Source: Gimesia maris
Lineage (GTDB): Bacteria > Planctomycetota > Planctomycetia > Planctomycetales > Planctomycetaceae
Assembly (NCBI RefSeq): GCF_008298035.1
Contig: NZ_CP042910.1
Location: 4,045,001-4,109,000, forward strand
DNA length: 64,000 bases
Reading direction: 5' to 3'
The position numbers and the translations under genes are program-made. The notes beneath the pieces were generated by a model that made no database searches, was not told where the DNA came from, and was given only the letters and a program-made list of their open reading frames with translations. How positions within the stretch are numbered: position 1 is the first letter of the stretch; each line of letters starts with the position of its first letter. This document shows positions 14,565 to 35,800 of this stretch, piece after piece.

Positions 14565-14597
14565 GTGAATAAATGTATAAAACCAAGGGCCCTGGGT

Positions 14598-15623: not shown

Positions 15624-15741
15624 CCAGTTAAGGAGTGAATCAGAAATCAAAACTGAAACCGGAATTGTCATTGAAGAGTACTCACTTATTTGTACAAACA
15701 ATCTTGTGCATTCGCAAAATTCATGATGAAAAGGGCCAACT

Positions 15742-16539: not shown

Positions 16540-16563
16540 TCAGTTTAGAATACCTGTCATCCT

Positions 16564-16612
16564 GAACAGCCCACAATACTTGACTGTTTAGTCATTTTTC
16601 TGTGGGTTGTTC
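16564..16612. terminator. Bidirectional terminator between convergent genes
   Basis: GAACAGCCCACA pairs with TGTGGGTTGTTC (one mismatch). Nested inside is TGACT-GTTT-AGTCA followed by TTTTT, a good intrinsic terminator for the rightward gene ending at 16539. The outer stem runs into the last codons of the leftward kinase gene (stop at 16592-16594). Confidence 0.6.
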
Positions 16613-19301: not shown

Positions 19302-19784
19302 GTTTGATTTCTGATTTGAAATTGGAACAGAAAAAATGGCCCCTTCAGTATTCAGCATACCCAATTCCACCAGTATACCGTTTTGATAGAGAGTAATCTC
19401 TCTTGTTCTGTAAGAATTTAAGACGATTACCCTCAACTGTTTTTCCTGTTCTATACATGGAATATCTACACTTCAGGTTCGCGCGGCGGAGGTATGAATG
19501 ACTCTCAAACTTGCAGAGAAAATATTGGTGAATCATGAAATGATTCGCACTGAAGCAAGCTGCCTCCCTGCTGAACTCATTCTAATCAGCAGGAATTTTC
19601 AAATTAAATGATCTCTCCTGGAATTATTTTGCGATTTGATATTGGAGAGATCATCTGGAAATGTCCATTGGTTTCCCTCTGGCTTCATAAGAAATTCTTA
19701 GCGTTGGCAAAGTAAGCCCTTAACGTTTTAGAGACAAATGAGCTGGATTACACATCATGTTGCACGTAATAGGGAGTAACTCTT
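19302..19784. other. Divergent promoter region
   Basis: 483 bases between the sigma/kinase operon (leftward) and the copper-protein operon (rightward). It must carry both promoters. I see no clear -35/-10 pair that I would defend and no hairpin of note. Confidence 0.5.
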
Positions 19785-20492
19785 ATGTCCGCTGATTCGG
19801 GAGCATGTACTTCAGTTGCCAGAGGTGGTGTGGGAGAGTCAGGAGCATCCGCGTTGCTGATACATTCGATTAAGGGCCCCCATTCGAAAATGATTGTCCT
19901 GCGAAATGTTGAAAGCAGTTTATGCCCCAATACCTGGGCACTTGCAAGTTTGTTTGTTAACGGCACGCCTATGGCCTCTGGCAATATCTCGACCGAGGGC
20001 AGTTCGATTCAAGTTGAGGTATCCGCTGGAGGAAGTGTTGCCGCTCTGATTCAGGCTGTACCAAATTTCAATCGTGTTTCCTGCGTTCGTCTGGGAGAAG
20101 CTTCTATTGATCTTGAAGAATGCGATCTGGTTAGTCTGAGCCGAACGAACGAAACTCAAGCAGGCGTCATTTCGACAAGCAATATAGTGACTCGTGACTG
20201 GTATGCATGGAATAACACGATGCCACCCAAACCCGACCAGTTCCATCTTGTTGGTGAAGTGCAGGTTCCTAACCCTGGAGTCGATGTTGTGCTGCTTCCA
20301 AGAATACCTCAGGGGATTAACCCGAGGATTCTGCTGATGGAAATTCATCTTCATCAACGTCCTGGCATTTGGCCACAGTTCGTGGTTTGGAAACCGGTCA
20401 GTTACAGCAAAGTCAATGGTGACTACGATTCCGTTCGGGTTTTTCATGGTAATGATCTTGTTGTGGACACTCCGGTGGAAGTAGTGCAGTAG
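19785..20492 (+). CDS. Protein of unknown function, first gene of the copper operon
   Basis: 235 residues, no family recognised and no signal peptide. The N-terminus is rich in Gly/Ala/Ser (SVARGGVGESGASALLI); the rest reads as beta-strands (SIQVEVSAGGSVAALIQAV, VLLPRIPQGINPRILLME). GGGAG stands 12 bases before the ATG. It is followed after 73 bases by the giant oxidase-like gene on the same strand. A structural or coat-like role for a beta-rich cytoplasmic or non-classically exported protein is possible, but nothing more can be said. Confidence 0.6.
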   Translation: MSADSGACTSVARGGVGESGASALLIHSIKGPHSKMIVLRNVESSLCPNTWALASLFVNGTPMASGNISTEGSSIQVEVSAGGSVAALIQAVPNFNRVSCVRLGEASIDLEECDLVSLSRTNETQAGVISTSNIVTRDWYAWNNTMPPKPDQFHLVGEVQVPNPGVDVVLLPRIPQGINPRILLMEIHLHQRPGIWPQFVVWKPVSYSKVNGDYDSVRVFHGNDLVVDTPVEVVQ

Positions 20493-20565
20493 ACGAGTAC
20501 GGTGATGCATGTAAACGATACCAGTCTGAAGAGGCTGGTTCACGAATTGCGTTGTTTTCATCTGA

Positions 20566-23500
20566 GTGAGGATGCAAATGAAGCTGGAACACTTAATTAT
20601 GCACAAGAAACTCTACGCTATGGCATTTGCTGTATCAGCTTGCCTGGCGACTTCAGTTGCAATCGAAAAGATACAATACGATGTACCGAAACTTTCGCCA
20701 ACATCTGTTGCCGGCGATTCCACGACAATCGCGCCGGCGACGAAAACAGCTGCCGGTAAAGAGTCACGTTTGGCTGACGGGCTAACACAGACTGAACTAA
20801 TTCGTGTGTGGAACGAAGGGGCTCAAGAGTGGACCGCCAACTCAAACATTAAGCCGAAGCGGGACCGGGAAACCGCAGAGCAATTCATGCTCATGATGCA
20901 GGGTATGGCTGGAATCGGGCCAGAAGATTCGAAATGGGTTCGTGACAAACTGTTCGAAGGCTTTATACCAGCACCAATGCCGTGCTGCGGTGTCCCTGGA
21001 AGCAAGAATCCTGAGGACGAACATCAGTGCTGCGAGAAGCAGAAAAACGCGATCGATATGGCCGCATTGTCAGGCGATTTCGCAGAGAAAGCGCGAACGC
21101 GATTCAATGAACAGTTTGGGCCGATGATGGGTAGACTAATCAAATCGTCCGCTAAAACCAGTTTTGTTTCACGACAGTCCGTGAGCGAGGACCTGCAACC
21201 AGACACTGAAGGACCATCTGACAATGCATTTGAAGGTCTGCGTATTTCAGTAGTCAAGCCATCGCCAGGTGACCCGCCTGCCAACTTTAGTATATCCGCG
21301 ATCAGCACGCCTATTGTCTATAATCGATTTGGTAAGGATTTCCGTAGGATAGAGGTGAATGGAGTCACCAAACCGTTTGGTGCGAGAGACAATGACGGAA
21401 TGATCTTCGTATTGGATGAGGACATTGATAAAGTTCGTGCTGGAAGCGAATACTTCAACGCAGGACACGATCCGATTTTCTACGGAGTTGGTCACGGCAC
21501 GCCTTTGTTTCTCAAGGACCCTGGTACCGGCAGATACCTCGATGCAAACAAACAACTGACTGATGAGCCTAAAGTTCCCGTACTCACTGTGGAACCGTTG
21601 ATCATTCGGGCAAACGGTGGTGATACAATCGTCATTGACTTTACGAATCGATTGGATGTAAATCGTTCATCTGGTGCCTCGAAGGCAAACCTGATCGTGG
21701 AAGGAGCAACCTACAACACTGGAGATGTAGGTCATGTGGGAGAAAACTGTGTTGAGCCTGTTGCTGCAGGAAATAACAATCCACAACTGCGCTACGTCAT
21801 CAAAATCGGCAACGAGCGTGCGACTGAAGGAACTTACTATTTTCACAGTAAGCCGATCGATTCGAAGGATCTCAACGGAAGCCTCCATCGCATGAAAACA
21901 CAGGCATCACATGGGCTGTTTGGCGCTCTGATCGTCGAACCGAAAGGTTCAAAGTATCTGGACTCATACACGTTTGAGATCAAAGAGGGAAGCGAGAACG
22001 GTTTTGGTGATTATGAAGTGGATGAAGATTCTTATGCCGAAGTCAAGAGTGGCTGGGCAGCGATCATCGTAAACGAAGACGAGTCGATTCCAGCGTTTCG
22101 CGAACACGTTGTCATGTTCCACGATGAGTTGGGGGATGACTTAATGGAGGATGCGGAAACAGAAAGCCCAAGAGCATTGAGTTACCGCTATGCAGGATTC
22201 AATGAAATTTTTGGAAGAAGGCCTTTCGGAGATCAGGATGGCGGCAAGGATTCACCATTCGAGATCAACGATCACTCAATGGCCTATAGTGCTTACACTT
22301 ACGGCGACGCTTCGACACCCCATCCACGATTTTATGTTGGAGATCCGATGCGATACCGCATCGTACACGGTGGCGCGGGGAACGAATTCCACGTCTTCCA
22401 TCACCATGCACACCGCTGGCGCTTTCAACCCGGGATCAGTGAAGCGGGAGCGAAAGACGATACGGCGAACTTGACGAGTCCATCAAAACGAGGACGTCCC
22501 GAAGACCCGAACCAGCCTGATTTAACTGTATCTGCTTCAACACGTATCGACTCGCAAACATTAGGTCCGGGAGAGACTTTTGACGTCTTGATGGAGGGTG
22601 GCGCAGGGGGAACACAAAGGACTGTGGGGGATTCGTTACTGCACTGTCACATTATTGACCATGTGATCCAGGGAATGTGGACCTATGCACGTGTCTATAA
22701 CACGTTGCAGGAACCAGGAGTGTCTTATTATCCGCCACTCGCCCCACTTCCAGATCGACTGAACGAAGCAATTCGTCCGCCCATTGCCGTGGACTCGCTC
22801 ACATTGCAGACGATGGTGACTCAACCGGGAGCACCGAAGCCAACACCCGTCGCCGGGCCGTTGGCGGGTGTTCCGATCACTGATATTCAGAATCAGCTGA
22901 TTCCCTACATCGAAAATCAACTTCCTCCTCAAGGGGTTCCTGAACTTGATAAAATAGCCGAAGTTAATGATGAGCATCGCGCGGAAATCAATCGTGCCAA
23001 TCAATGGGATTGGGAAATCATAGATGTCCCTGGTCAGGGAATTCTTTATCTTGGTGAGAGATATGATCTTGGTGATTTTCATACTGGTAAAGAGCGTCCG
23101 CAAAGCTATGTGAGATTCGGCGTCGGATACCCAACAGCCGGAGAAGGAATCGGTGTACACCGGAATGAACCCAACCCATTGGGTGATGATCTCCCAATCG
23201 ATCGGCCACGATTGCGATTCAATCCTAAAGATGGTCGTCTGGCCTATCCTCATTTACTGCCGCACGCTGGTAGACGCCCTCCGTTTGCACCAAGGACGCG
23301 ATTAAAGCCAGAGCAGGCTGGTGGTGTCGCGGTTGTGCGCGACGAATGGCGGCAGGGAACCGCATATTTGAACAAAACGGTGAAGGCTACTGACCCAGAC
23401 AGCACGCGCGGCGGTAATAGCGGGAGCGGACTGGCACCCGAAGATGCGCCCATTCGCCGTTACGATTTGGTCGCATTGGAATTACCAATCAATTATCACG

Positions 23501-26500
23501 CTGCCAACGGCAAGCCCCTGTCAAGTGAAGAAGACGAATATCGGGATTTCTTATTTGGAAGAAAAAAACGGGTTCCGCCCCCGCAAACGATTACGATTAC
23601 CGCGGGCAAAGGCACTACAAGCTGGGTACCTGGTACGCAGAAAATCAGAACAGGCGACACAATCGAGTGGATTATAGATAATGAAAATTCGACTGGTAAG
23701 CATGGGATTAAATTCACAAATTGGACGCACGACAAGGAGTATTTCCAAGTTGAGCAGACTGCGGATAGCCTTGATTTCAATGAGACCATTGGCCAAAACG
23801 TGGATCCGGCTGATCCAAAAAGATTAAGAAAGGGGTCATCGGATGTTAAGGGCCAGCTTTTGCTAAGAGTGAAAGTTCTCAAGGAATTAGCCGTGGGTTC
23901 TCGTATCGCGTATGTATGCACAGAACATGGCAACAGCATGTCCGGCGCGCTTACGGCATCCGATGTAGCACCAGGTGTCGACGAGAAAGGTCAGATCTTT
24001 GTCTTAGCCGAAGACTTCGCAGATATTGCCGCTGGGCGCAAGCCGGCCGAACCATTGGTACTTCGTGCCAACGTTGGTGAAGTTGTCGAGGTCACACTGC
24101 GGAGTGCTCTAAGAGACGATGACGCTGACAACGCCGGTTACAGCAAAGTGGGCATTCACACTCACCTGGTGCAATATGATGTGCAGTCATCTGATGGCGC
24201 AGTAGGCGGGCTAAACTACGAAACTTCCATCCGGCCCTCCTTAGAGCTGGTTGACGGGAAACTCGTGCCTCTAGAACCCGATCGTAGACTTGAAGAAGCA
24301 GTGCATTATCGTTGGTGGTGCGATACTGAGTTAGGAACCGTGTATTTTCACGACCATTCGCTTCTGAAAACAAGCTTGCCACATGGATTATTTGGCGCGA
24401 CGATCGTCGAGCCCAGTGGATCCAGCTATCACGATCCGATCTCCGGAAAGCCAATTTATGAGGAGGAAACTGATCCTGCAGAACCTAATCTGACCACCAT
24501 CAGCAAGTCAAACGCAACAGTGATGAGAGACGGTACTGATTCCTGGGGGCGAGGGGTTTCGATCGCCAGTATTCATAACGCGAAAAAAACCTCCACGTTT
24601 CGTGAATACGTACCACTGTTCCAAGACCGGTCAACGGGTATCGGTGCATCTATCAACCTTCGAAGCACACCGATCCGGACGTTTAATCACGATTTTGATG
24701 GGAAATTTGTCCCGGGACTGACGCCTCCCTTTTCCAATCTGAAAGTCAAATATGATAATGGTCACTCAGTCTTGTGGGGGGGCAAAGCGACGCGGTTTAG
24801 CTCCCATGTCAGTGCTGATCCCGTCACTCCCGTTTGGCGAGCATTTCCGAATGACCCTGCACGGATTCGCGTTGAGGGAGGTGCGACGAATTTATTGCAT
24901 TCGCTGACGGTTCATGGTCATCGTTGGCAAACAGAACAGAATAATCCCAAGTCTACTATCCGTGACTTCGCAATCGCTGGTGTGTCTGAAGCCTTTACTT
25001 ATGGCAGCATTGCGAATGCGTCGCCTGGCGACTATCTATATGGTAGCACTGGTGTCAATGACCTGGTGGATCAAGGCAAGTGGGGCATCTGGCGAGTTCA
25101 TGATCCGGCAGACTCTAATAATCTCGTTCAAGCCAGCGGTTCTGCGCGAGTGTTCTTTTTGTTTGTCAACAATAATCCCGCACTTCCTTTCTCGATCCCC
25201 AAGGGGACACGGTTTGTCAGCCGCGCTGGAATTGAATACGAGGCAACTCATAACTCTCAGGAATTGAATCAGGAAAAGATAGATAAAGGGGATTCATTTA
25301 TCGATGTCAGTCTGAGAGCCGTGTTCCCCGGTGATTCTGGAAATCTGCCGATTCTGAGCCGACTTGGTTTCTCAAAGGCGTTTAATAATTCTGTGCCTGA
25401 ATCGTTGATAATCGATAGAGTGGTTAGTCTGGGTATCAGTGGAGGTGCAACAAAATTGCAACCACTACCTGGTTTCACTTCTAATGTCGCACCAGCAGTT
25501 GCTGAACCACTTGTGGAGTCTTTGGGTATCACGGAAGCTCCAGAACCCATTGTCGACAAACCGGAATTTTATGTGGCCGCGTTACGAGTTTCGCTCCCAG
25601 TCTCTACAGGCACCACTCCCAATGCAACTACCCCCATACTTGCTTACGTACCACTTGAAACGGATCAGGAACGGTTGCTTGCTGATCAGATTGCTAGCTT
25701 AACTCGTTCAATTAAACCACGGTGTGATTCAGAGAAACAATCACACCGCGATAAGATCGACTTGAAGGTCTTTAAGCTTCGTCAACAACTTCTAACACGA
25801 TTTCTGGCTCACCCGCATCCGCTGGTTTTGCGAGTTGCAGCACCTGAAGAAAGCAATACCCGTCAAGTCTCTGTTCGTTTAATCAACCTTTTGCCGACGC
25901 CGCAGGAGATGATGCAGGAATTCCCTGATACTGCTGCAAGACCGTTTGGCAGACCTTACAGTCCGCTTACGTCACTGCACGCCAGCTTGGTGAGGCATGA
26001 TGCATCGAGTGACGGAACCGCATTGGGACGAAATAAGCATTCGATTGTTCCCTATGCAGACGCAAGGACTTACGTCTGGTCGATTGACCAGGAACTAGGC
26101 ATCTGCTACCTCCGTGATACAGCGGACCCCGAGCACCAAACCAGCGGGCTATTCGGCGCATTGATTGTCGAACCACCTGGAACGCGCTTCCTGTCAGGGA
26201 CCGATGGGATGGAAAAAAGAGGAGTTTCTGATCCGCACGCTATCATCATCGACCGAAGTGAACGTATCGCGTTTCGCGAGTATGTGCTTTTCTTCCAAGA
26301 CGCGTTTCACGCACAAGACGATCAGTTTGCAATTAACTATATGGTGGCAGGCGATTCCGGGACTCCACGAACCCCGCATCTCAAAGGGCACGTTGGAGAT
26401 CAAATTCGGGTTCGCCAAGTTCATGCAGCTGGATCTGGGGCTCAAGCTGGCAACCATTCGTTCTATATCGGTGGACGTCGATGGCGGATGGACAATGCAG

Positions 26501-26763
26501 ACCAGGCAAGCAACCGAATTGCTGCTATTTCGCAAGCACCGGCTGCTTGCGTTAATGCAGAGTTTCTGATTGATGACTCATTCTCTGATGAGGCGAAAGT
26601 AAAAACTCGCAGTTACTTCTATGGATCACATGTTGGAGATCAATACGAGGGAGGGGAATGGGGTTTGTTTACTATTCTGCCACGAACTGAAAGCAACTTT
26701 TCGATTCTGCAGCCATTGCCTGTCTGGGCTATCAAAACTCATCCACCTGTCTCTTTGGAGTGA
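20566..26763 (+). CDS. Giant protein with three multicopper-oxidase-like modules and a plastocyanin-like domain
   Basis: 2,065 residues counted from the GTG at 20566. The ATG at 20578 is the more likely start, as GAGG lies 6 bases before it. Signal peptide at about 12-35 (KKLYAMAFAVSACLATSVA). Module 1 (about 240-720): YYFHS (His427), FHVFHHHAHRW (609-618), and a complete type-1 copper motif HCHIIDHVIQGM (693-704). Plastocyanin-like domain (about 1005-1135): His1046, Cys1118, His1121, Met1125. Module 2 (about 1140-1550): HTH (1198-1200), YFHDHS (1262, 1264), HSLTVHGHRW (1445-1454), but no HCH motif. Module 3 (about 1640-2050): same fold markers (SGLFGALIVEPPGTRF, FYIGGRRWRMD) but the ligand histidines are gone. 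Canonical enzymes are about 450-650 residues. An N-terminal stretch (90-160) has paired cysteines (MPCCGVPG, HQCCEK). Role: extracytoplasmic copper oxidase or electron store; substrate unknown. Confidence 0.85.
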   Translation: MRMQMKLEHLIMHKKLYAMAFAVSACLATSVAIEKIQYDVPKLSPTSVAGDSTTIAPATKTAAGKESRLADGLTQTELIRVWNEGAQEWTANSNIKPKRDRETAEQFMLMMQGMAGIGPEDSKWVRDKLFEGFIPAPMPCCGVPGSKNPEDEHQCCEKQKNAIDMAALSGDFAEKARTRFNEQFGPMMGRLIKSSAKTSFVSRQSVSEDLQPDTEGPSDNAFEGLRISVVKPSPGDPPANFSISAISTPIVYNRFGKDFRRIEVNGVTKPFGARDNDGMIFVLDEDIDKVRAGSEYFNAGHDPIFYGVGHGTPLFLKDPGTGRYLDANKQLTDEPKVPVLTVEPLIIRANGGDTIVIDFTNRLDVNRSSGASKANLIVEGATYNTGDVGHVGENCVEPVAAGNNNPQLRYVIKIGNERATEGTYYFHSKPIDSKDLNGSLHRMKTQASHGLFGALIVEPKGSKYLDSYTFEIKEGSENGFGDYEVDEDSYAEVKSGWAAIIVNEDESIPAFREHVVMFHDELGDDLMEDAETESPRALSYRYAGFNEIFGRRPFGDQDGGKDSPFEINDHSMAYSAYTYGDASTPHPRFYVGDPMRYRIVHGGAGNEFHVFHHHAHRWRFQPGISEAGAKDDTANLTSPSKRGRPEDPNQPDLTVSASTRIDSQTLGPGETFDVLMEGGAGGTQRTVGDSLLHCHIIDHVIQGMWTYARVYNTLQEPGVSYYPPLAPLPDRLNEAIRPPIAVDSLTLQTMVTQPGAPKPTPVAGPLAGVPITDIQNQLIPYIENQLPPQGVPELDKIAEVNDEHRAEINRANQWDWEIIDVPGQGILYLGERYDLGDFHTGKERPQSYVRFGVGYPTAGEGIGVHRNEPNPLGDDLPIDRPRLRFNPKDGRLAYPHLLPHAGRRPPFAPRTRLKPEQAGGVAVVRDEWRQGTAYLNKTVKATDPDSTRGGNSGSGLAPEDAPIRRYDLVALELPINYHAANGKPLSSEEDEYRDFLFGRKKRVPPPQTITITAGKGTTSWVPGTQKIRTGDTIEWIIDNENSTGKHGIKFTNWTHDKEYFQVEQTADSLDFNETIGQNVDPADPKRLRKGSSDVKGQLLLRVKVLKELAVGSRIAYVCTEHGNSMSGALTASDVAPGVDEKGQIFVLAEDFADIAAGRKPAEPLVLRANVGEVVEVTLRSALRDDDADNAGYSKVGIHTHLVQYDVQSSDGAVGGLNYETSIRPSLELVDGKLVPLEPDRRLEEAVHYRWWCDTELGTVYFHDHSLLKTSLPHGLFGATIVEPSGSSYHDPISGKPIYEEETDPAEPNLTTISKSNATVMRDGTDSWGRGVSIASIHNAKKTSTFREYVPLFQDRSTGIGASINLRSTPIRTFNHDFDGKFVPGLTPPFSNLKVKYDNGHSVLWGGKATRFSSHVSADPVTPVWRAFPNDPARIRVEGGATNLLHSLTVHGHRWQTEQNNPKSTIRDFAIAGVSEAFTYGSIANASPGDYLYGSTGVNDLVDQGKWGIWRVHDPADSNNLVQASGSARVFFLFVNNNPALPFSIPKGTRFVSRAGIEYEATHNSQELNQEKIDKGDSFIDVSLRAVFPGDSGNLPILSRLGFSKAFNNSVPESLIIDRVVSLGISGGATKLQPLPGFTSNVAPAVAEPLVESLGITEAPEPIVDKPEFYVAALRVSLPVSTGTTPNATTPILAYVPLETDQERLLADQIASLTRSIKPRCDSEKQSHRDKIDLKVFKLRQQLLTRFLAHPHPLVLRVAAPEESNTRQVSVRLINLLPTPQEMMQEFPDTAARPFGRPYSPLTSLHASLVRHDASSDGTALGRNKHSIVPYADARTYVWSIDQELGICYLRDTADPEHQTSGLFGALIVEPPGTRFLSGTDGMEKRGVSDPHAIIIDRSERIAFREYVLFFQDAFHAQDDQFAINYMVAGDSGTPRTPHLKGHVGDQIRVRQVHAAGSGAQAGNHSFYIGGRRWRMDNADQASNRIAAISQAPAACVNAEFLIDDSFSDEAKVKTRSYFYGSHVGDQYEGGEWGLFTILPRTESNFSILQPLPVWAIKTHPPVSLE

Positions 26764-26769
26764 CTTTCG

Positions 26770-28185
26770 ATGTATCGTTATGCGATCTCATTATTACATG
26801 TCCTGGTGATCTCGCAGTCGCTCGCCGGTGAAACAGTTCACGTGGTTACGGCAACGACATCCCAATGGATTTATCGCGACACTCGCTCTGGTCTGGGTGA
26901 GTCTAATCCTGTTCGGATCTTCGCATCTCCAGGGGATACGATTAAGTTTCAACAGATCATGTCAGGACATGGAGTCATTTTTTATCGCAACCCGTCTAAT
27001 GTGACCGAAATCGGACGTGTAGTGAATCCTGAGGAAGAATTCAAAATACTCAATGGCGAAAAGTTATCACCTGTTTCAAAAAGTCGAGTCTTTGGTCGAG
27101 AAAATCTCGCCACAAGAGTCATAAAAGATGAGACGGAGATGATTACGATTCGACTGGCGCACAACTTTCGAGGACCGTTATACTTTGCCGAACGAGTCAG
27201 CGCCTCCGAAGGTCGTGATATCATGTTCGGTATAATCGAACTAGCTTCGGCATCACGAATGAAGTCAATCTCGGAACTGGAACTTCCAGAGAACTTTAAG
27301 ATGTCAAGCGCGATCGATATCACTTCGGTACGTGATGAAGAATGGGATCGCTCACTGGGAAACCTGAGTCAATTACCCAATCAAGAATTTATCGTACCCA
27401 GGCAGGGCGAAGACCCGGTCGGGTTCAATTGGGAGAAATGGTTCGGAAACTTGACATCCCACCTGTCACCCTATCTGGCAGATGTGACCTGGTATTATGC
27501 CGTTGCAGTCGATCTCGATGACGATGATGACGATGATGTTGTCGCACTGATTGAGACCGCGAATGCAGAACCTGCCTGGTATGCGATTATCAACGGAGTG
27601 AAATCGCATGTCCAGGATCCAGGCAATCCCAGTGATTTGTTGGGTGAAATAAAAAAATTCACGGCAGCTGTAAAAATCGTCATTCCCGAACAAGTTGATG
27701 AAAAGCGAGCGTTTATTAAATCTGCCGACTTAAATCTCGATGGTCGCGTTGATTTGGTGCTTTGCGGTGGAGGAGACGCACGCATCACCATCGCTTACCA
27801 GGGGTTTATAGCTGAACCTCCCGGATACGCTTATGCCAATCAGCAAACACTGGATAGCGAAATCGTTTTCGGAATCGAGAAACCAAGGGTGGTCGATGTG
27901 GAAAACCGGAACGATGACTCCATGCCAGACTTGGTGATCTGTGGTAATTCAAATTGGGCAGTTTTCCTGAACCGGATCGGTCGAGGCTTCTCGAGTACGG
28001 ATGCGCAAGTGCTCGACGTAAAACCACCGTTTGCCGATGCGTCGGTCAGACGATTTGGAAAAGCAGATTTGAATGGTGATCATTCACTTGAGTTGATCAT
28101 TGAGAATAAAGCAGGTGAATTGCGTGCCTATTCAAAGTCTGCGGATGGTAAATATTTCCAGGTAAAGAAAGGTGCAACGCGATGA
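26770..28185 (+). CDS. Secreted cupredoxin-like plus FG-GAP/VCBS repeat protein
   Basis: 471 residues. Signal peptide 1-20 (ISLLHVLVISQSLAGE). About 25-155 is a cupredoxin-like beta domain (SPGDTIKFQQIMSGHGVIFY) that keeps one His but shows no Cys-x2-His pair, so it probably does not bind copper as a blue site. About 230-470 holds FG-GAP/VCBS-type calcium-binding units: VDLDDDDDDDVVALI, ADLNLDGRVDLVLCGG, NRNDDSMPDLVICG and ADLNGDHSLELII, which predict a propeller. The Asp run comes from a GATGACGATGAT tract near 27514-27540. It begins 6 bases after the giant gene and overlaps the next by 4 bases. Confidence 0.75.
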   Translation: MYRYAISLLHVLVISQSLAGETVHVVTATTSQWIYRDTRSGLGESNPVRIFASPGDTIKFQQIMSGHGVIFYRNPSNVTEIGRVVNPEEEFKILNGEKLSPVSKSRVFGRENLATRVIKDETEMITIRLAHNFRGPLYFAERVSASEGRDIMFGIIELASASRMKSISELELPENFKMSSAIDITSVRDEEWDRSLGNLSQLPNQEFIVPRQGEDPVGFNWEKWFGNLTSHLSPYLADVTWYYAVAVDLDDDDDDDVVALIETANAEPAWYAIINGVKSHVQDPGNPSDLLGEIKKFTAAVKIVIPEQVDEKRAFIKSADLNLDGRVDLVLCGGGDARITIAYQGFIAEPPGYAYANQQTLDSEIVFGIEKPRVVDVENRNDDSMPDLVICGNSNWAVFLNRIGRGFSSTDAQVLDVKPPFADASVRRFGKADLNGDHSLELIIENKAGELRAYSKSADGKYFQVKKGATR

Positions 28186-28484
28186 CAATGCAAGTCAACT
28201 TCCTAAGCACGATTGATGTCAACCTGGGAGCCTTTCAACAGGCCCGGTTCAATTTTCCAAAGCAGGGAACCTTCAAGTTCGAGGTATTCGACGGGAATTT
28301 CGTCGAATACGGAACGGTCAAGGTCACGAATAGTCAACCGCCATCAGGTGACACGGTAATCGTTATTCTCGAAGAAGCAGTACAGCCCGGTAAGGTGGTG
28401 ATGCCGACTGACGAAATGCTTGGATGGCTAAATCTACGAGATCACACCATAAGACTTGTTGTTTCTCAATCCAGAATCGGCTGA
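28182..28484 (+). CDS. Small beta-rich protein of unknown function
   Basis: 100 residues, no family recognised and no signal peptide. It starts inside the stop region of the previous gene (4-base overlap), so it is translationally coupled. The sequence alternates as in a beta-sandwich (RFNFPKQGTFKFEVFDGNF, GTVKVTNSQ, DTVIVILEEAV). The tight coupling argues for a partner role to the FG-GAP protein or the following cupredoxin. Confidence 0.65.
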   Translation: MTMQVNFLSTIDVNLGAFQQARFNFPKQGTFKFEVFDGNFVEYGTVKVTNSQPPSGDTVIVILEEAVQPGKVVMPTDEMLGWLNLRDHTIRLVVSQSRIG

Positions 28485-28554
28485 ATATTTATGTAGGAAA
28501 CGTTTTTGAAATGACTGTAATACCCCCAACAGAACTTTACAAAGAGGGCAGAAA

Positions 28555-30108
28555 ATGCGGTACAACCAAAACGTGTCGACCTTGATTCTTTTGATCTTTC
28601 TTTTAATTACTGTTTTGCAGAAGGAATCAAATGGCCAGGAACCTAAAGTGATCGAAGGAACCGGCGGAAATGCATGGTCTCCAGCCACATTGAAGTTGAA
28701 GACCGGTGACGTGGTAGAATTCAAGGTTACCGGCAGCAGGCATGGAGTTGCCTTCAATAACGGCGATCATGCGAAACAGGTGTTTGAATTCCTCGATGGA
28801 TTCGAATTGAAGCAGCATGACTTCCCTGGGACTATTCGCTCAACTCACGCAAACGGTACAGGAATCAACAAAGATGACAACGGCGGACTACTGATTCGAG
28901 CCAAAGTGAAGACAATTCCAGATGGTGTATCGGAGCTTGAATACTTCTGCTCACTTCACGGTAATAACATGTCGGGGAAGATTGAACTGGAAAAGGGCGC
29001 TGTACCCGTACCTAAAGTGATCGAGGGAACCGGCGGAAATGCATGGTCTCCAGCCACATTGAAGTTGAAGACCGGTGACGTGGTAGAGTTCAAGGTTACC
29101 GGCAGCACGCATGGAGTTGCGTTCAATAACAGTGATCATGCAATACAGGTGTTTGAATTTCTCGATGGATTCGAATTGAAGCAGCATAACTTCTCCGGGA
29201 CTATTCGCTCAACTCACGCAAACGGTACAGGAATCAACAAAGATAACAACGGCGGACTACTGATTCGAGCCAAAGTGAAGGCAATTCCTGATGGTGTCTC
29301 CGAGCTTAATTACTTCTGCTCACTTCACGGTAATAACATGTCGGGGAAGATTGAACTGGAAAAGGGCGCTGTACCCGTACCTAAAGTGATCGAGGGAACC
29401 GGCGGAAATGCATGGTCTCCAGCCACATTGAAGTTGAAGACCGGTGACGTGGTAGAGTTCAAGGTTACCGGCAGCACGCATGGAGTTGCGTTCAATAACG
29501 GTGATCATGCAATACAGGTGTTTGAATTTCTCGATGGATTCGAATTGAAGCAGCATAACTTCTCCGGGACTATTCGCTCAACTCACGCAAACGGTACAGG
29601 AATCAACAAAGATAACAACGGCGGACTACTGATTCGAGCCAAAGTGAAGGCAATTCCTGATGGTGTCTCCGAGCTTAATTACTTCTGCTCACTTCATGGT
29701 AATGACATGTCGGGGAAGATTGTGCTGGAGAAGGACACAGCACACGCTGACCACACTATTCATGGTGTTAGTGATGATGGAAACCAATCCTGGATAGTGA
29801 ACGGGATTCCTGCCGCAAATCTTGATGTTAAAGCCGGCCAGATCATTGAATGGCGTGTCAGGGAGGGATTTCATGGATTACGTTTCACATCATGGGCCAG
29901 AGACAGGAAGCACATTGCAGTGATCAAGGATGGTGACATCGGGTTCATGCATTTGCTGGGACGTAACCCGACAGCATCCAAGGTGGAGAATGATGTCATG
30001 CTGCGAGTTCGGATTGACGATGCGGATGTGGGAACAGAGATTCCTTTTTCCAGTCTTGTGCATCCGAGCATGAAAGGCAAGTTAACGGTCATTGCTGATA
30101 GCAACTGA
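28555..30108 (+). CDS. Secreted four-domain cupredoxin with three near-identical repeats
   Basis: 517 residues. Signal peptide 1-27 (TLILLIFLLITVLQ). Three tandem plastocyanin-like domains of exactly 123 residues, each with a full type-1 copper set: His63, Cys132, His135, Met139; His186, Cys255, His258, Met262; His309, Cys378, His381, Met385 (motif YFCSLHGNNM, with D for the second N in the third). A fourth, diverged domain (about 395-515) has FHGLRF but PFSSLVHPSM where FCSLH is expected, so the Cys ligand is lost. Repeats begin PKVIEGTGGNAWSP. It should carry up to three electrons or store copper outside the membrane, next to the oxidases of the operon. GAGGGCAG precedes the start. Confidence 0.88.
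   Translation: MRYNQNVSTLILLIFLLITVLQKESNGQEPKVIEGTGGNAWSPATLKLKTGDVVEFKVTGSRHGVAFNNGDHAKQVFEFLDGFELKQHDFPGTIRSTHANGTGINKDDNGGLLIRAKVKTIPDGVSELEYFCSLHGNNMSGKIELEKGAVPVPKVIEGTGGNAWSPATLKLKTGDVVEFKVTGSTHGVAFNNSDHAIQVFEFLDGFELKQHNFSGTIRSTHANGTGINKDNNGGLLIRAKVKAIPDGVSELNYFCSLHGNNMSGKIELEKGAVPVPKVIEGTGGNAWSPATLKLKTGDVVEFKVTGSTHGVAFNNGDHAIQVFEFLDGFELKQHNFSGTIRSTHANGTGINKDNNGGLLIRAKVKAIPDGVSELNYFCSLHGNDMSGKIVLEKDTAHADHTIHGVSDDGNQSWIVNGIPAANLDVKAGQIIEWRVREGFHGLRFTSWARDRKHIAVIKDGDIGFMHLLGRNPTASKVENDVMLRVRIDDADVGTEIPFSSLVHPSMKGKLTVIADSN
28642..29748 (+). repeat. Three tandem 369-bp coding repeats
   Basis: Units start at 28642, 29011 and 29380, each 369 bases and in frame. Units 2 and 3 differ at only a few bases (for example AACAGTGATCAT against AACGGTGATCAT), while unit 1 differs from them at more sites. 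This points to a recent duplication or gene conversion. Confidence 0.9.
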
Positions 30109-30139
30109 ATACTAATCAGATTTCAAGAAAGATATAAGC

Positions 30140-31459
30140 ATGTCATTGCTCTTAACGCTCAACGGTTCGTCCACCTTGGATGCATTTCTGATTGCACCTC
30201 ACAACAATCAGGTGTTTCCCTCGATTCTTGGTCTAGCCACCGATGATGGCACCACGGTCGATGTTGAGATTCAGGTGTCGGCGCAGGGTGCTGGCATAGT
30301 ATTGTCTCAAACCAACATCACGGTCGGATCAGGTGGGTCGACCGTTTCTGTCCACGCCATTTCTCCAAGCCTCGTTCGTAACGACACAACTCTGAATATT
30401 TTGGTAGGCGGAGTGCTCGAAGGTTCGATCAGCTTGACTGCGATCTCAAACCCGAGAGTATGGTTCGATGGTCGGTTTGAGGTGCGGTTTGCGACTGGCC
30501 AGGGTTTTTACAACGATCCACGGGGCAATCCCGATGGAACAGGGCGTGGTTGGATGTGGGCATTGGAGGGTGAGCCTGATTTCGTTCCCGCAGACAGTGT
30601 TCCGGACCGCATTGAAAAACCGGTCGGGCGGGTAATCAGGTTTCACAATCCTGTTGCACCACGTTCACATGTTCCGCCGATCGGAGTGTTTGTAAAAGCT
30701 GTCGAAGGTGAAGTCGGAGGTACGAAAGAACGTTTCACAGGCGGAGATCCAATGGTCGGCGCAGCGGTTAATCTTGGGCCGAACACGTACTTCGCTTCCA
30801 ATCAACCAGTAAACCCGGCTGACCGCACTGCAGGGAGACTTCCTGAGGAACGTCATGGCGATGGAGAACAGCCGCTGGCGTTATTCCAGTGCCGCTTGGG
30901 CGATCAATTTAGTGGGGGTTCTAAAACCGGAGCGTTCGTTCCGGGTACGACCGAAAGTCAGTCACCTCGCAATCCAGATTTCCGACCATACGCGCAGGGG
31001 CTTACGGTTTTGAGTCCAGGCGAACGCGCAGCATTTCCGTTCTTATCCCTCGGAGAATTTTCGACTCAACGAGTCAATCAGCTGCTATCCGAATTTGTTG
31101 CGCTAAAAGCAGCTGGTCAGACGAATTCGGTCGAATTTCGTAACTTGCGACTCCGGATCGGCCATTTGTTACCTCTGCTCGAGCAATCTCTGCAGAATCA
31201 AATCATTGCAGATCATGGCCCTGACGGTGTAACACGGTTAGTACCAAGCCAGTCGTTTGGATGGGGACAGCGGGAGGTCTATCGCGGAATGATCAATGAG
31301 TCGATCAATATTCAACCCAACGATTCATCCATCCTGTCGTATTTTTCGCAATTTCCATCCTTTCACTTTCTGTGCGTGTTTTTCAACTTTCACACCGATG
31401 AAGCGTGTGGACACTGCTACGGTGCAGTGGATCCGTCGCAGCAACCGCCCACACTTTAA
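30140..31459 (+). CDS. Protein of unknown function in the copper operon
   Basis: 439 residues, no family recognised and no signal peptide. The first 110 residues look like a beta-sandwich (VDVEIQVSAQGAGIVLSQ). The middle is rich in Gly/Pro/Arg (GFYNDPRGNPDGTGRGWMWA) with loops rather than repeats; about 310-350 is helical (VNQLLSEFVALKAAGQ). The C-terminus has His-x4-Cys-x2-Cys (FHTDEACGHCYG), a possible metal or redox site. It sits between the cupredoxin and the galactose-oxidase-like gene with gaps of 31 and 35 bases, so it is surely co-transcribed. Confidence 0.6.
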   Translation: MSLLLTLNGSSTLDAFLIAPHNNQVFPSILGLATDDGTTVDVEIQVSAQGAGIVLSQTNITVGSGGSTVSVHAISPSLVRNDTTLNILVGGVLEGSISLTAISNPRVWFDGRFEVRFATGQGFYNDPRGNPDGTGRGWMWALEGEPDFVPADSVPDRIEKPVGRVIRFHNPVAPRSHVPPIGVFVKAVEGEVGGTKERFTGGDPMVGAAVNLGPNTYFASNQPVNPADRTAGRLPEERHGDGEQPLALFQCRLGDQFSGGSKTGAFVPGTTESQSPRNPDFRPYAQGLTVLSPGERAAFPFLSLGEFSTQRVNQLLSEFVALKAAGQTNSVEFRNLRLRIGHLLPLLEQSLQNQIIADHGPDGVTRLVPSQSFGWGQREVYRGMINESINIQPNDSSILSYFSQFPSFHFLCVFFNFHTDEACGHCYGAVDPSQQPPTL

Positions 31460-31494
31460 CCGCAGATCAATACTAGTTATCCAGAGATGTCACT

Positions 31495-33732
31495 ATGAAG
31501 AGAACCATAAAACGAGTATGTACAAAAACGTTTTGGATTATGGGACTTATTGCCGTTACACAAGTCATGCTTACACCAGGATTCGTTAGTGCTGCTTCCT
31601 GGGAAATCACGGCAACGAGCGGATTCCAATGGGATCCAAGTGAGGTGAAGTTGAGCTTGGGTGATGACGTTACTTTCAAGCTAAGCGGTGATCCTCAGGG
31701 CATACCTCATGGACTTCATTTCAATGACTGGGATTCTATCAAACAAGTATTTGAGATTGAAGCCGTCCAAGGTCAACAGTCATTCAATGCCACAACGGGA
31801 CAGAACAGCGCTTCAACTAATATGGCGAACAAGGTGTTGTTCAAGGCCAAAATCAAGAGCATTCCGGACGGACTCAGCGAAATCTCGTATGTATGTATTG
31901 AACATGGTGGGATGAGAGGCAATATCGTTCTCGGGGCCACGGACGGCGATATGGGCGTTGAAAAGATGGTTAGGCGACTGTCTCCTTCAATGCAGCGACG
32001 CATGTTGAAATTTATCAACCAAGCGCGAAGTCCCAGGGAGTTAACTAAGTCGCCACAGGAACGTCGTGTCAAATTTGAACATGGTCCATCGGCAGCCAGG
32101 CCAAAATACGACCGGCGGCACGAAGGGGTGGTTGCATATGACTTGGCTACTGCGAAAATGATGTTGGAGAATCGTCCGCTGGACGGGTATACGGATGTTA
32201 GAGATTGCCTCAAGCTCTACAAGGAATCTGAGACCGAAAGGTTTGAAGATCTATTAAACTCACTCGGTCCACCCCAGTTTGGCGAATGGCGGGAAGTTGC
32301 AACCGTTGCGGAAGGTGACGAAGAAGAGCCTGTCATGCATGCGGCGATGTTGCATACGGGAAAAGTTCTGCTCATTCCAAGCAATAACAGAACAGTTCTT
32401 TGGGATCCCGACCCAGCGGTCGCAACGCCCATCGAAATCATCAACGGAGAACAGGCGGGAACGGGGTTAACTGCAAATCTCTTTTGTAGTGGTCATTCAT
32501 TTCTTTCTGATGGTCGCTTGCTTGTAGTTGGAGGAGGAGGTGGCAATCCGGGAGCCGCATCTTCGATTCAGGGATGGAAATTTGATCCCAAAACAATCAA
32601 ATGGACTCGAACCAGTAACGATATGTCGTTCCAACGCTGGTATCCCACACTGGTTACCTTGGCAGACGAGCCTGGCAAGGTACTGGTTGCTGCGGGGGCT
32701 ACCGGAATGGGCGTCGCGGATTTCATGGAGATATATTCCGAAGTTACCGACAAATTTGAACCTGTCACGGCCACAGGGCCAGTGGGAGAATTGCTCTTTC
32801 CACCGACCTATCCAGGTCTGCATTTGCTGCCTGGCGGGGAAGTATTCCATACTCCCGTTGGATTTGGTGATTGCAATCAGAGCCCAAGTGGCGCGTCAGC
32901 GGACCCCACAGCAATCTTCGCTTTCTCAAACCCGGCGAGAACTATGGGGGCGTGGTCGACACTTGAAAACAATCATCGGCGGAAGGGAATGTCAGTGTTG
33001 TTGCTTGAGCCCACAAGTCCATTTGTGCGAGTACTTGCAATTGGTGGTGGAGATGCTGGTACCAGTGGGACTGGTCAAACAATCGACTTGAGTACATTCT
33101 CGCCCACTTGGGAACCAGCGTTTCCCCTGCTAGAGGAACGGGTGCACCCCAATGCCGTGATCTTGCCCGATGGTACAGTATTTATTTGTGGTGGCATGGA
33201 AGCAGGAACTAAGCCTCCCCCAAACGGCGGAAGATGCGAATTGTATGATTCCAAGACGGGTTCAATTGCCGAGATGGACGAGTTGGCCCGGCCAAGACAT
33301 TACCACTCTGTGGCAATACTCCTGCCAACGGGTGAAGTCATGGCAGCAGGAGGTGCAGGTAGAGGTGGCTGTGATGTCAGCAGGCATAACACCATTGAAG
33401 TATTTAAGCCGCCGTATCTTTTTCGAGGCGATCGTCCTGTAATTAATTCAATGAGATCGGAAGTGGAACATGGTGCAGCGTTTGAAATCGATACCCCGAA
33501 TCCTTCGGCTATCTCGAAGATCGTTCTTGCGAGACCTATGGCTGTTACGCATCAGACCGACAGCGAGCAGCGAATGATCACATTGACTTACACTGTAACT
33601 GGTCCTGGGACTATTGAAGCAATAGCACCCGCAGGCTCACCGAACTCAATCGCGCCACCTGGTTACTATATGCTCTTCATCCTCAATCAGGATAGAGTAC
33701 CATCGGTAGCCAAGTGGATCCTTCTCAAATAA
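31495..33732 (+). CDS. Galactose/glyoxal-oxidase-like copper-radical oxidase with N-terminal cupredoxin
   Basis: 745 residues. Signal peptide 1-33. Cupredoxin domain (about 35-147) with His72, Cys134, His137 and Met140. A charged linker follows (150-260), then a kelch propeller (about 265-640) and a C-terminal DUF1929-type beta domain (about 645-745). The catalytic residues of galactose oxidase can all be matched: Cys331 (NLFCSGHS) and Tyr383 (QRWYPTL) for the thioether-linked radical cofactor, Tyr603 and His604 (RPRHYHSVAILLPTG), and His686 (AVTHQTDSEQR). The RWYP and RHYHS context is closer to glyoxal oxidases than to Fusarium galactose oxidase. Such enzymes oxidise alcohols or aldehydes with O2 and release H2O2. 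The fused cupredoxin is unusual. Substrate unknown. Confidence 0.92.
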   Translation: MKRTIKRVCTKTFWIMGLIAVTQVMLTPGFVSAASWEITATSGFQWDPSEVKLSLGDDVTFKLSGDPQGIPHGLHFNDWDSIKQVFEIEAVQGQQSFNATTGQNSASTNMANKVLFKAKIKSIPDGLSEISYVCIEHGGMRGNIVLGATDGDMGVEKMVRRLSPSMQRRMLKFINQARSPRELTKSPQERRVKFEHGPSAARPKYDRRHEGVVAYDLATAKMMLENRPLDGYTDVRDCLKLYKESETERFEDLLNSLGPPQFGEWREVATVAEGDEEEPVMHAAMLHTGKVLLIPSNNRTVLWDPDPAVATPIEIINGEQAGTGLTANLFCSGHSFLSDGRLLVVGGGGGNPGAASSIQGWKFDPKTIKWTRTSNDMSFQRWYPTLVTLADEPGKVLVAAGATGMGVADFMEIYSEVTDKFEPVTATGPVGELLFPPTYPGLHLLPGGEVFHTPVGFGDCNQSPSGASADPTAIFAFSNPARTMGAWSTLENNHRRKGMSVLLLEPTSPFVRVLAIGGGDAGTSGTGQTIDLSTFSPTWEPAFPLLEERVHPNAVILPDGTVFICGGMEAGTKPPPNGGRCELYDSKTGSIAEMDELARPRHYHSVAILLPTGEVMAAGGAGRGGCDVSRHNTIEVFKPPYLFRGDRPVINSMRSEVEHGAAFEIDTPNPSAISKIVLARPMAVTHQTDSEQRMITLTYTVTGPGTIEAIAPAGSPNSIAPPGYYMLFILNQDRVPSVAKWILLK

Positions 33733-33748
33733 ACAACAAGGATAGCAA

Positions 33749-34336
33749 ATGTATTACCGATTTGTTTCACTCTTTTGCATCTGTTCTGTTTATGTCACCG
33801 GTGGATTTGCTGTTGACGGCATTGCATCTGATGGGTTTCAAAGAACGTCTTTTGATTCGCCGAAGCAAGTCGCAGAGCATTGGGATGTCAGAAATCAGGA
33901 TGGCAAAAAGATCGTGCACAGCAAACTGAAGGGATCCCCCTGCGTGATTGTACTTTTTCGGGGACATGGGTGTTATCATTGCGTCAAACAGCTAGGCGAA
34001 ATCGTCGAAGTAGAATCTCGCTTTCGGAGTCGCGGCGTACGTTTGATTGCCGTATCGGATGAATCTGTAGAAGAGATGGGTAAAGCACTTCGCAATCGAC
34101 CTCTTCCCTTTCCAGTTCTCTCTGACGTCAGGTCAAAATTAGCCAAGTTCCTGGGAAGTGACAAGATTGAAAATTGGCATGGAATTCTTATTTTGGACTC
34201 GAATGGCAAAGCAAGGTGGCTTCTATGCGGATCAAAGCCGCTAATGGATTTCCGAGAAGTGCTTTCTCAAATTGATAGTTTGCAACTTTCAACTACTCCT
34301 CTTGAGACCCACGGTCTTGAATCGCGGGTTGACTAG
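33749..34336 (+). CDS. Secreted thioredoxin-fold protein (AhpC/TSA-redoxin type)
   Basis: 195 residues. Signal peptide 1-23 (FVSLFCICSVYVTGGFA). Thioredoxin fold with CVIVLFRGHGCYHCVKQ; Cys75 and Cys78 form a CxxC redox pair, followed by VRLIAVSDES and LPFPVLSDV, typical of AhpC/TSA-redoxin proteins. It could reduce peroxide, which the neighbouring copper-radical oxidase would produce, or act as a disulfide or copper-site maturation factor (SCO/ResA-like). It is the last gene of the copper operon, 16 bases after the oxidase; its stop codon touches a possible half-copy of the hairpin repeat. Confidence 0.8.
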   Translation: MYYRFVSLFCICSVYVTGGFAVDGIASDGFQRTSFDSPKQVAEHWDVRNQDGKKIVHSKLKGSPCVIVLFRGHGCYHCVKQLGEIVEVESRFRSRGVRLIAVSDESVEEMGKALRNRPLPFPVLSDVRSKLAKFLGSDKIENWHGILILDSNGKARWLLCGSKPLMDFREVLSQIDSLQLSTTPLETHGLESRVD

Positions 34337-34363
34337 AGCGCGTCACATTTTAGTCTAGCGCGA
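34335..34363. repeat. Possible half copy of the hairpin repeat
   Basis: GAGCGCGTCACATTTTAGTC and the following TAGCGCG resemble one arm of the ~92-bp repeat (copy E has GCATCACATTTTACGCTGGCGTC). No second arm follows. It starts at the stop codon of the thioredoxin-fold gene, like other copies. Weak match. Confidence 0.3.
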
Positions 34364-34420
34364 ATGCGGTAAGTCGGGTAGACTGGTGAGGTCTCATTTC
34401 ATGGAAGATTTGTAACCGTT

Positions 34421-34810
34421 TCAGCAAATACGCAGTCTATCAATGACTGAACTGAATCGCTGCCTTCTTTGGTCACAGCAGGGACAGCATTTTTCCGATT
34501 CGGTCAGGTCGATGCCCTGCAGCAGGAGTGCCAGATCGGTGGATGAAAGTGACAGACCATGTGTGCCTTCTGGACCGGAAAGACGCTGGTACGTGCCCGC
34601 TTCCAGGCGTTTGTACCAGATAGCCAGGCCTTCGTGGTCCCAGTAGAGCAGCTTGTTTCGATCCTGTTTTTTGTTGAGAAATACAAACAGTCCCCCATCT
34701 AGTACGTTTTGCTGCAGGTAGACTTCGGTCATCCGCATCAGCCCGTCAAAACTTTTACGCATATCAGTGGGGACCGTGCAGAAATCAATGCGGGTCGGCA
34801 GATTCAGCAT
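34421..34810 (-). CDS. tnpB: IS66 Orf2 / TnpB accessory protein
   Basis: 129 residues, the usual family size. Typical opening RIDFCTVPTDMRKSFDGL and centre LFVFLNKKQDRNKLLYWDHEGLAIWYKRLEAG. TnpB is needed for IS66 transposition but is not the transposase. It overlaps tnpA by 7 bases. Probably non-functional here because tnpC is absent. Confidence 0.9.
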   Translation of the reverse strand: MLNLPTRIDFCTVPTDMRKSFDGLMRMTEVYLQQNVLDGGLFVFLNKKQDRNKLLYWDHEGLAIWYKRLEAGTYQRLSGPEGTHGLSLSSTDLALLLQGIDLTESEKCCPCCDQRRQRFSSVIDRLRIC

Positions 34811-35151
34811 GCGCGCTGCTCCAGCACGGCTAGCACGGTTTCAGGCGTGGTCCGATCACAGCCGCTTCCGGTACGAACGGTCGTGCCGTGTGAGAACACG
34901 ATTTCAATCGGCGCGGCAGGGAGTTGGACTTCAACGGGAAGAAAGGAAGTTGCAGCGGTGTTCGCGGCATCGCGTTTTTTCAGTTCCCGCCGCCAGTAAT
35001 GGTACACTGGTTCGCTCAGTCCCTCACGCTGGCAGAAGGCACGGATCGAAAGTCCTGACTGCATGCGGTCTGAAATCGTTGTTCGCCAGAACGCTTCACG
35101 GTCCGGGTTCCGCCGCTGATCGGCACGTTGTGTTGGCTGGGATGCAGGCAT
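34804..35151 (-). CDS. tnpA: IS66 Orf1 / TnpA accessory protein
   Basis: About 115 residues from the ATG at 35151, chosen because AGGAG lies 8 bases before it; the frame is open to 35187. A helix-turn-helix-like N-terminus (FWRTTISDRMQSGLSIRAFC and EGLSEPVYHYWRRELKK) is typical of IS66 TnpA. The C-terminus holds IEIVFSHGTTVRTG, also usual. Confidence 0.85.
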   Translation of the reverse strand: MPASQPTQRADQRRNPDREAFWRTTISDRMQSGLSIRAFCQREGLSEPVYHYWRRELKKRDAANTAATSFLPVEVQLPAAPIEIVFSHGTTVRTGSGCDRTTPETVLAVLEQRAC

Positions 35152-35206
35152 CGATTTCGCTCCTGAATATGTTGGTGGTTGAAACACATTCAGAATACGT
35201 CACACG

Positions 35207-35584
35207 TCAAGGTGTATTTGGTGGGCCGGTTACGTTCATCAAGGCGTTCCACATGGTTAACATCCGGGTTATTGCTGCCCGATAGCGACGGATGGTTTGC
35301 AGGGAAGATCGCAAAACCGGTTCATGATGATTGAGCCAGCGTTGTTGTAAATCATCAATACCTACAGGATCGAAATTGAACACCGAATGAGTATGAGACT
35401 CTATCTGGGAGTTGTTACGCGCGGCCATCTGCCGCGCCTCTTCTTTATCCGCACCTATTTTGGGTCGCAAACGCTTTCCATTTTCAAGGTAGGTGAGATA
35501 CCAGATTTTACCGCGGAGATCGCCACGAACTTTACCGATTTGGAACGATGTCTTCCGATTTTGCTTTGATGATTGCTTCATCAA
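35207..35584 (-). pseudogene. Truncated tyrosine recombinase (N-terminal part)
   Basis: 125 residues: an arm-binding N-terminus (GKVRGDLRGKIWYLTYLENG, then KEEARQMAARNN) and the start of the SAM-like core-binding domain (LRSSLQTIRRYRAAITRM). The whole catalytic domain with the Arg/His/Tyr residues is missing; the frame runs into the IS66 remnant. It begins 133 bases from the 3' end of tRNA-Ser(UGA), the standard place for an integrase of an island or phage inserted at a tRNA gene. Confidence 0.7.

Positions 35585-35715: not shown

Positions 35716-35800
<85 letters not shown>

Follow-up and report, generated by a model that had tools for sequence, protein, structure and literature searches.

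The stretch of DNA analysed here (the window) covers 64,000 nt of the Gimesia maris genome, a single contig of 7.8 Mb (NZ_CP042910.1, positions 4,045,001–4,109,000). It contains eight consecutive open reading frames (ORFs), all on the plus strand between 19785 and 34336, for which the working names P1–P8 are used. Two of them, P2 and P7, encode different predicted O2-using copper enzymes with intact sites within one predicted operon, P2 being a giant multicopper oxidase and P7 a copper radical oxidase. The new feature, as judged by profile alignment, is a cupredoxin module common to P2 (as an insert), P5 (as repeats) and P7 (at the N-terminus). The intergenic gaps are 73, 6, −4, 70, 31, 35 and 16 bases, and all ORFs of the run described in an earlier model-made annotation (the sequence-only reading) are present; the first gap hinges on the P2 start, being 73 bases for GTG at 20566 and 127 bases for ATG at 20620. 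Signal-peptide-type N-terminal hydrophobic stretches were seen in P2 (from 20620), P3, P5, P7 and P8, matching the five signal peptides claimed before, and none was seen in P1, P4 or P6; both results come from a look at hydropathy and not from a signal-peptide program. Within 18600–34600, neither terminator-like matches (13 vs. 15.7 in shuffled sequences) nor promoter-like matches (8 vs. 17.1) were in excess. The genes and modules are as follows.

19785..20492, plus strand: P1, 235 aa, no signal peptide seen; whole protein 95% identical in a second genome (G065)
20566..26763, plus strand: P2, giant multicopper oxidase related to MnxG, 2065 aa from GTG, 2047 aa from ATG 20620
23590..23970, plus strand: cupredoxin module inserted in P2, about residues 1009–1135
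26770..28185, plus strand: P3, 471 aa, signal-peptide-like start, FG-GAP repeats in the C-terminal half
28182..28484, plus strand: P4, 100 aa, no homologue found
28555..30108, plus strand: P5, 517 aa, four cupredoxin modules
28641..29734, plus strand: tandem array in P5, three 369-base cupredoxin units
30140..31459, plus strand: P6, 439 aa, family not assigned; one distant homologue found (G094)
31495..33732, plus strand: P7, 745 aa, GlxA-type copper radical oxidase with N-terminal cupredoxin
33749..34336, plus strand: P8, 195 aa, thioredoxin fold, signal-peptide-like start, CYHC

P2 matches the MnxG chain of Bacillus MnxEFG (PDB 9bxa) in eight stretches (E = 2.1e-84). All 12 of the 12 ligand positions of the type-1 (T1) and trinuclear copper motifs are occupied, in the same layout as in 9bxa: counted from the GTG start, H609, C694, H699 and M704 for T1, and H612, H614, H693, H695, H1198, H1200, H1262 and H1264 for the trinuclear site. 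The giant multicopper-oxidase-like protein of the sequence-only reading is therefore borne out, and its relation to MnxG had gone unnoticed there. Like MnxG, P2 has repeated cupredoxin domains and the motifs HxxHxH, HCHxxx(H)xxxxM, HxH and HxH in the same order; unlike MnxG, it is far longer, carries an inserted cupredoxin and lies on a different branch, and genes for MnxE/F partners were not found: the two small proteins encoded next to Priestia MnxG, which by place and size are taken to be MnxE and MnxF, resemble none of P1, P4 and P6. At the place of the second T1 His, 9bxa has Ala (position 340, counted on the alignment) and Priestia MnxG has His; an H340A mutant of MnxG has reportedly been studied.

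In a midpoint-rooted tree of 16 giant oxidases, with the P2 insert left out and no Pseudomonas MnxG in the set, P2 pairs (support 100/100) with the protein of a Planctomycetota metagenome-assembled genome, OFTM9 (G293, contig JAJDER010000042.1), its nearest relative found. The pair falls in a six-row group with Haladaptatus, Streptomyces and two G481 proteins, and Priestia MnxG falls with L032–L036 in the other, ten-row group (split 100/99). A contig scan with two short patterns returned the OFTM9 contig alone. In the OFTM9 relative (L029, 8157–13022), unlike in P2, the motif HCHxxxHxxxxM occurs a second time, close to the C-terminus. With the NCBIfam MnxG model NF041487, P2 scores 108.9 bits, below the equivalog cut-off of 3100. 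The five other giants scored, Priestia MnxG included, also fall below it (OFTM9 204.1, L030 81.2, L032 868.1, Streptomyces 149.8, Priestia MnxG 332.6), so the low score does not by itself exclude manganese oxidation. Given this score and the other tree branch, P2 was rejected as a member of the MnxG family, and a relation to it is kept.

A 2013 survey of six-domain blue copper proteins includes ZP_01851853.1 of Planctomyces maris DSM 8797, a MnxG homologue of 2047 aa placed at the common node of the survey's two prokaryotic clusters (PMC3600357). From length (2047 aa from ATG 20620) and lineage, P2 and ZP_01851853.1 are probably the same protein or near orthologs; the passages on ZP_01851853.1 discuss no operon (PMC3600357). 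The earlier statement that no such system is described holds for the set itself in the literature searched, but not for the planctomycete MnxG homologue, which had been listed in 2013 (PMC3600357).

P7 has the kelch motifs, the E-set domain and the catalytic residues of a copper radical oxidase (AA5 type, GlxA branch). Its best PDB match is Streptomyces GlxA (4unm, E = 1.1e-42), and galactose oxidases also match. C331, W382-Y383, Y603-H604 and H686 are in register with the catalytic Cys, Trp-Tyr, Tyr-His and His of GlxA; in AA5-type enzymes such residues serve as the cross-linked Cys–Tyr pair, the second Tyr and the two His. PF09118 is matched with 74.7 bits (cut-off 25), and Glyoxal_oxid_N, with 36.8 bits, falls slightly below 37.5. 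The galactose/glyoxal-oxidase-like enzyme proposed earlier is confirmed, with its catalytic residues intact. P7 differs from GlxA in its N-terminal cupredoxin, in the segment 149–280, which is common to a Variovorax plasmid protein, and in its score with the NCBIfam GlxA model NF052501 (E = 4.9e-67, 226.6 bits), below the equivalog cut-off of 800. On the Variovorax plasmid L038 (7028–13791), a tyrosinase with FG-GAP repeats, a copper-amine-oxidase-like gene and a P7-like radical copper oxidase stand in a row.

The third element is the shared module. The P2 insert (ligands H1046, C1118, H1121 and M1125) sits between the T1 segment, which aligns with MnxG 301–426, and the HxH-pair segment, the other trinuclear half, which aligns with MnxG 465–609; it is not found in the three giants aligned with P2. 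The first three modules of P5 carry the T1 ligands H63, C132, H135 and M139; H186, C255, H258 and M262; and H309, C378, H381 and M385. These three units differ at only 12 to 29 of 369 bases, and such near-identity argues for a recent tandem duplication. The N-terminal cupredoxin of P7 has the ligands H72, C134, H137 and M140. The type-1 ligand set (His, Cys, His, Met) is thus found in five modules across P2, P5 and P7, and the T1 site of the P2 oxidase core is a sixth blue-copper site. This agrees with the earlier count of at least five intact blue-copper sites in three proteins; the triple cupredoxin stands as far as the three intact P5 modules go, but P5 holds a fourth, in which Ser500 replaces Cys. 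Comparison with hhalign gave 98.8% for the P7 N-terminus and P5 module 1, 97.3% for the P7 N-terminus and the P2 insert, and 93.3% for P5 module 4 and the P2 insert; by these alignments, the three proteins share homologous blue-copper modules. P5 reaches no NCBIfam cupredoxin cut-off. Among the matches listed in the P7 search of 150 Planctomycetales genomes, those to the P7 cupredoxin all lie inside the operon (7 of the 10 own-genome candidates were scored).

For the remaining proteins less could be assigned. The N-terminal part of P3 is cupredoxin-like by eye but has no Cys, and hhalign against P5 module 1 (4.8%) lends the likeness no support. The size of P4 resembles that of MnxE/MnxF, but no similarity was detectable. 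The single-sequence structure models of P4 (pLDDT 42.6) and P6 (pLDDT 34.4) were too poor for a fold search. P8 matches the AhpC/TSA family PF00578 with 60.8 bits (cut-off 26), has a CYHC motif at 75–78 (C75, C78) and lies below the NCBIfam ResA and Prx cut-offs; the match and the CxxC motif uphold the thioredoxin-fold protein of the sequence-only reading.

The distribution of the genes was studied in samples drawn by the search tool, with all counts including the genome itself and with 14 congeners among the 150 Planctomycetales. P2 was found in 1 of the 150 (E 1e-10) and in 8 of 392 genomes of the phylum, OFTM9 being the best other match. P3 (E 1e-5) and P4 were each found in 1 of 150. P6 was present in 2 of 150 and, in another sample, in 1 of 294; P7 in 5 of 150 (E 0.001), with G108 as the only strong other match, and in 15 of 294 at E 1e-15. 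P1 was matched in 6 of 150, at 95% identity in G065 and in the four others over its C-terminal part only (about residues 119–234). In the 14 sampled congeners, P2, P3, P4, P6 and P7 were unmatched, and P1 was matched in one. Plasmid records gave 29 matches for P2, all below 60% identity, and 24 for P7, and none for P1 or P6. The search for co-occurrence of the operon genes across genomes, in which P5 and P8 were not searched separately, was mostly negative. A link beyond this genome holds in part: G065 keeps P1 with a scar of P2, and G293 is the only other genome listed with both a P2 relative and P7-like genes, but its genes are on separate contigs, in some cases at a contig end.

The neighbourhoods of the relatives give a similar picture. 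In 22 stretches covering 23 other P7-like places of the phylum, at least 7 of which end early at contig ends, tblastn (E 1e-4) found no P1–P6, P8 or P7 cupredoxin. None of the other operon genes occurs in the 13 kb read of the OFTM9 contig, which stops inside the P2-like gene. In the genomes sampled, the homologues are largely scattered without their neighbours (P1 in G065, P6 in G094, P2 in OFTM9 and P7 in the 22 stretches), an outcome that the sequence-only reading itself had named as its refutation, and the idea of a conserved system was rejected. A gene for an animal-type haem peroxidase (An_peroxidase) lies beside the radical-oxidase gene, on the same strand, in 2 of 23 stretches (the 22 and L016 of G108): a tblastn search with the peroxidase of the window located that of L100 (G379; E = 2e-75), and that of L016, identified by a Pfam match, overlaps the radical-oxidase gene by 11 bases. 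The window itself has a full-length An_peroxidase gene at 12397–14073 on the minus strand (PF03098, 496.7 bits), 17 kb from the P7 gene. In G094 (L015, 3863–16552), the P6 relative stands among genes for a multicopper oxidase, SCO1, a MauG-type peroxidase, PhoD and a PF12902 ferritin-like protein. Relatives of the operon genes keep company with other metal-dependent oxidases, in combinations that vary from place to place.

The surroundings of the operon are those of a genomic island. Two features mark its right side:

35207..35584, minus strand: integrase-like remnant, recognised by eye, no Pfam match
35716..35800, minus strand: tRNA-Ser (TGA), island edge

The edge is placed at this tRNA because homology to G059 and to contig C18 of G065 begins at 35711. 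Between the operon and the tRNA (34421–35584) lie an IS66 orf2-like gene, a second likely IS66 gene and the integrase-like remnant, the last two without a Pfam match; congeners carry the segment 35266–35800 (remnant and tRNA) at other tRNA-Ser genes as well. No left edge could be located, as the 55 kb left of the window tRNA and the 26 kb left of the G059 tRNA do not match. To the left of the operon (14565–19436) are genes for a DUF1559-like protein, a 265-aa protein, a Ser/Thr kinase and an ECF sigma factor, and three proteins of the DUF1559 kind with type-IV-pilin-like N-termini (by eye) are encoded at 6857–9218 and 14565–15623. G065 matches the window over 14312–20508 at 87.6% (the DUF1559-like gene, the gene at 15742, kinase, sigma factor and P1) within 2 kb of a tRNA-Ser(CGA), the window operon lying by tRNA-Ser(TGA). 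Eight bases past the P1 stop, G065 has 62 bases of the P2 gene in the same orientation (85.5%, E = 4e-12; the scar alone is not significant at the protein level, E = 1.7), and since P1 and then this scar are kept there, the P1–P2 link is not unique to the present genome. The scar may be read as a loss of the P2 region in G065. Beyond it (L063, 76–5451), in the place expected for P2–P8, come genes for a GMC oxidoreductase that carries a 3keto-disac_hyd domain, for a haem-binding protein of the FMP type (NF040572, 301.8 bits) and for a protein of 446 aa that has no detectable relation to P6. Counting the genome itself, 6 of 17 genomes of the genus have a match to the kinase–sigma part. In four of them, all congeners other than G065, its neighbour is a Gfo/Idh-like gene (by eye), and the 20-kb stretches read there hold neither P1 nor relatives of P2–P8. 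The sigma factor and kinase (16592–19436) were considered as operon regulators; the case is weak, and the block is kept with P1 in G065.

The favoured interpretation, to which we give a probability of roughly 0.35, is that P1–P8 form one transcription unit on the island, an exported copper-redox cassette in which P7 would make H2O2 while P2 and the cupredoxins would supply or drain electrons. Enzymes of the P7 family make H2O2 from an alcohol or aldehyde, and multicopper oxidases take single electrons at T1 and pass them to O2. P7 would thus release H2O2 as it oxidises alcohol or aldehyde groups, probably those of a glycan at the surface or in the environment, and P2 would reduce O2 to water. 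The cupredoxin modules would be docking and electron-carrying units leading from P7 to P2, directly or via the multi-module P5, and P8 may keep the copper-site cysteines reduced during assembly; the scheme gives no part to P1, P4 or P6. Because the cupredoxin inserted by the T1 half of P2 has a homologue on P7, the related module on both oxidases suggests an exchange of electrons between them. The likeliest purpose of this link would be to keep the Cu-tyrosyl radical of P7 oxidised and hence active, a task that falls to a secreted peroxidase in the case of a fungal enzyme. The intact copper sites of P2 and P7, the homology of the modules and the place of the P2 insert, the tight gene spacing, the P2 scar after P1 in G065, the presence of a P2 relative and P7-like genes in G293 and the An_peroxidase by the radical oxidase in L016 and L100 count in favour, the last agreeing with the finding that a partner oxidant can activate oxidases of this type (PMC9770985). 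The extracytoplasmic oxidase chain making or handling H2O2 that the sequence-only reading proposed survives in the exported copper set, the intact P7 and H2O2 as a fair family inference, but it lacked the MnxG relation and the homology of the modules. Several observations weigh against the cassette. P7-like genes elsewhere, those of G293 included, have neither P2 nor the cupredoxin nearby, and copper is not kept in every copy of the module, as the fourth one of P5 illustrates. The module could also serve copper delivery or surface binding and not electron transfer. Finally, no other sampled genome has P2 together with P6 or a cupredoxin-bearing P7 (P5 and P8 not being searched separately), so co-conservation cannot support a shared function.

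Two other functions are possible but rather unlikely. The homology of P2 to MnxG, with a common T1/trinuclear layout, would suit a Mn(II)-oxidising system like Bacillus Mnx, in which P2 turns Mn(II) into Mn(III)/Mn(IV) on the surface of the cell, with the rest of the set as accessories. The MnxG homology noted for the 2047-aa Planctomyces maris protein (PMC3600357) points the same way, as does the origin of the OFTM series, to which the nearest P2 relative belongs, in tunnel biofilms with a Mn-oxide layer (PMC10732223, whose available passages do not mention OFTM9 itself). However, Priestia MnxG and L032–L036 form a group of their own, separate from P2 and OFTM9, and one member of that group, L032, has a far better fit to the MnxG model; P2 remains far from the cut-off of that model; and the activity of Bacillus Mnx requires MnxE and MnxF (PMC5622069), to whose putative Priestia counterparts P1, P4 and P6 show no similarity. 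Maturation of a surface polymer, with P7 oxidising an envelope, stalk or biofilm polysaccharide in the manner of Streptomyces GlxA and the rest of the set delivering copper or anchoring P7, deserves about the same low credence. It draws on the GlxA model and PDB matches of P7, on a title cited by PMC11267884 that connects GlxA with the deposition of glycans at the tips of hyphae, and on P3, whose FG-GAP repeats make it a possible surface partner; yet the GlxA equivalog cut-off is missed, the giant oxidase P2 is left unexplained, and P7, unmatched in 14 congeners, is therefore dispensable for the growth form of the genus.

Still less probable is a segment of island cargo, in which genes of different origin run in one direction with no common pathway. 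The tRNA-Ser edge with its integrase-like and IS66 remnants and the different neighbours of the homologues are what such a segment would show, but the cupredoxin module common to P2, P5 and P7, the gene overlap and short gaps, and the P1–P2 link traced in G065 speak against it. A copper-tolerance cassette, in which P2 would oxidise Cu(I) or Fe(II) and the cupredoxins would buffer copper, is likewise improbable. Metal-handling genes lie near the P2 relative in 5 of 7 plasmid regions opened (of the 29 records), among them CopC, a P-type metal ATPase with a metal-sensing repressor, CusA/CzcA efflux and ZIP and CDF transporters; the other two regions have none near it, one having a cation transporter only, 7 kb off. 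Such a cassette does not call for a copper radical oxidase, and no copper exporter or sensor was noticed among the ORFs of 1–38000, in a search that was not systematic and did not extend to 38000–64000.

Within the copper-redox cassette, a more specific proposal, to which we assign only an outside chance, is that P2 drives P7 by oxidising its tyrosine–copper site to the radical, either along a cupredoxin path (P2 insert, P5, P7 N-terminus) or through Mn(III) of its own making; either the relay or Mn(III) would let P2 activate P7. To our knowledge, no activator has been shown for a bacterial copper radical oxidase. Copper radical oxidases become active through a one-electron oxidation, which in some fungi is carried out by a partner peroxidase (PMC9770985), and a manganese(III) activator for galactose oxidase is reported in a title cited by PMC11267884. 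The fungal tandem peroxidase–alcohol oxidase pair likewise couples a copper radical oxidase with a second, activating secreted metalloenzyme, but its partner is a haem peroxidase and the coupling has been measured (PMC9770985), whereas the partner here would be a multicopper oxidase with cupredoxins. If P2 does drive P7, the pair would do in a bacterium, without a peroxidase, what the tandem enzymes do in fungi. The related blue-copper modules on the radical oxidase and the giant oxidase offer a concrete, testable candidate for an activator, and the operon supplies a gene context for the planctomycete branch of MnxG relatives.

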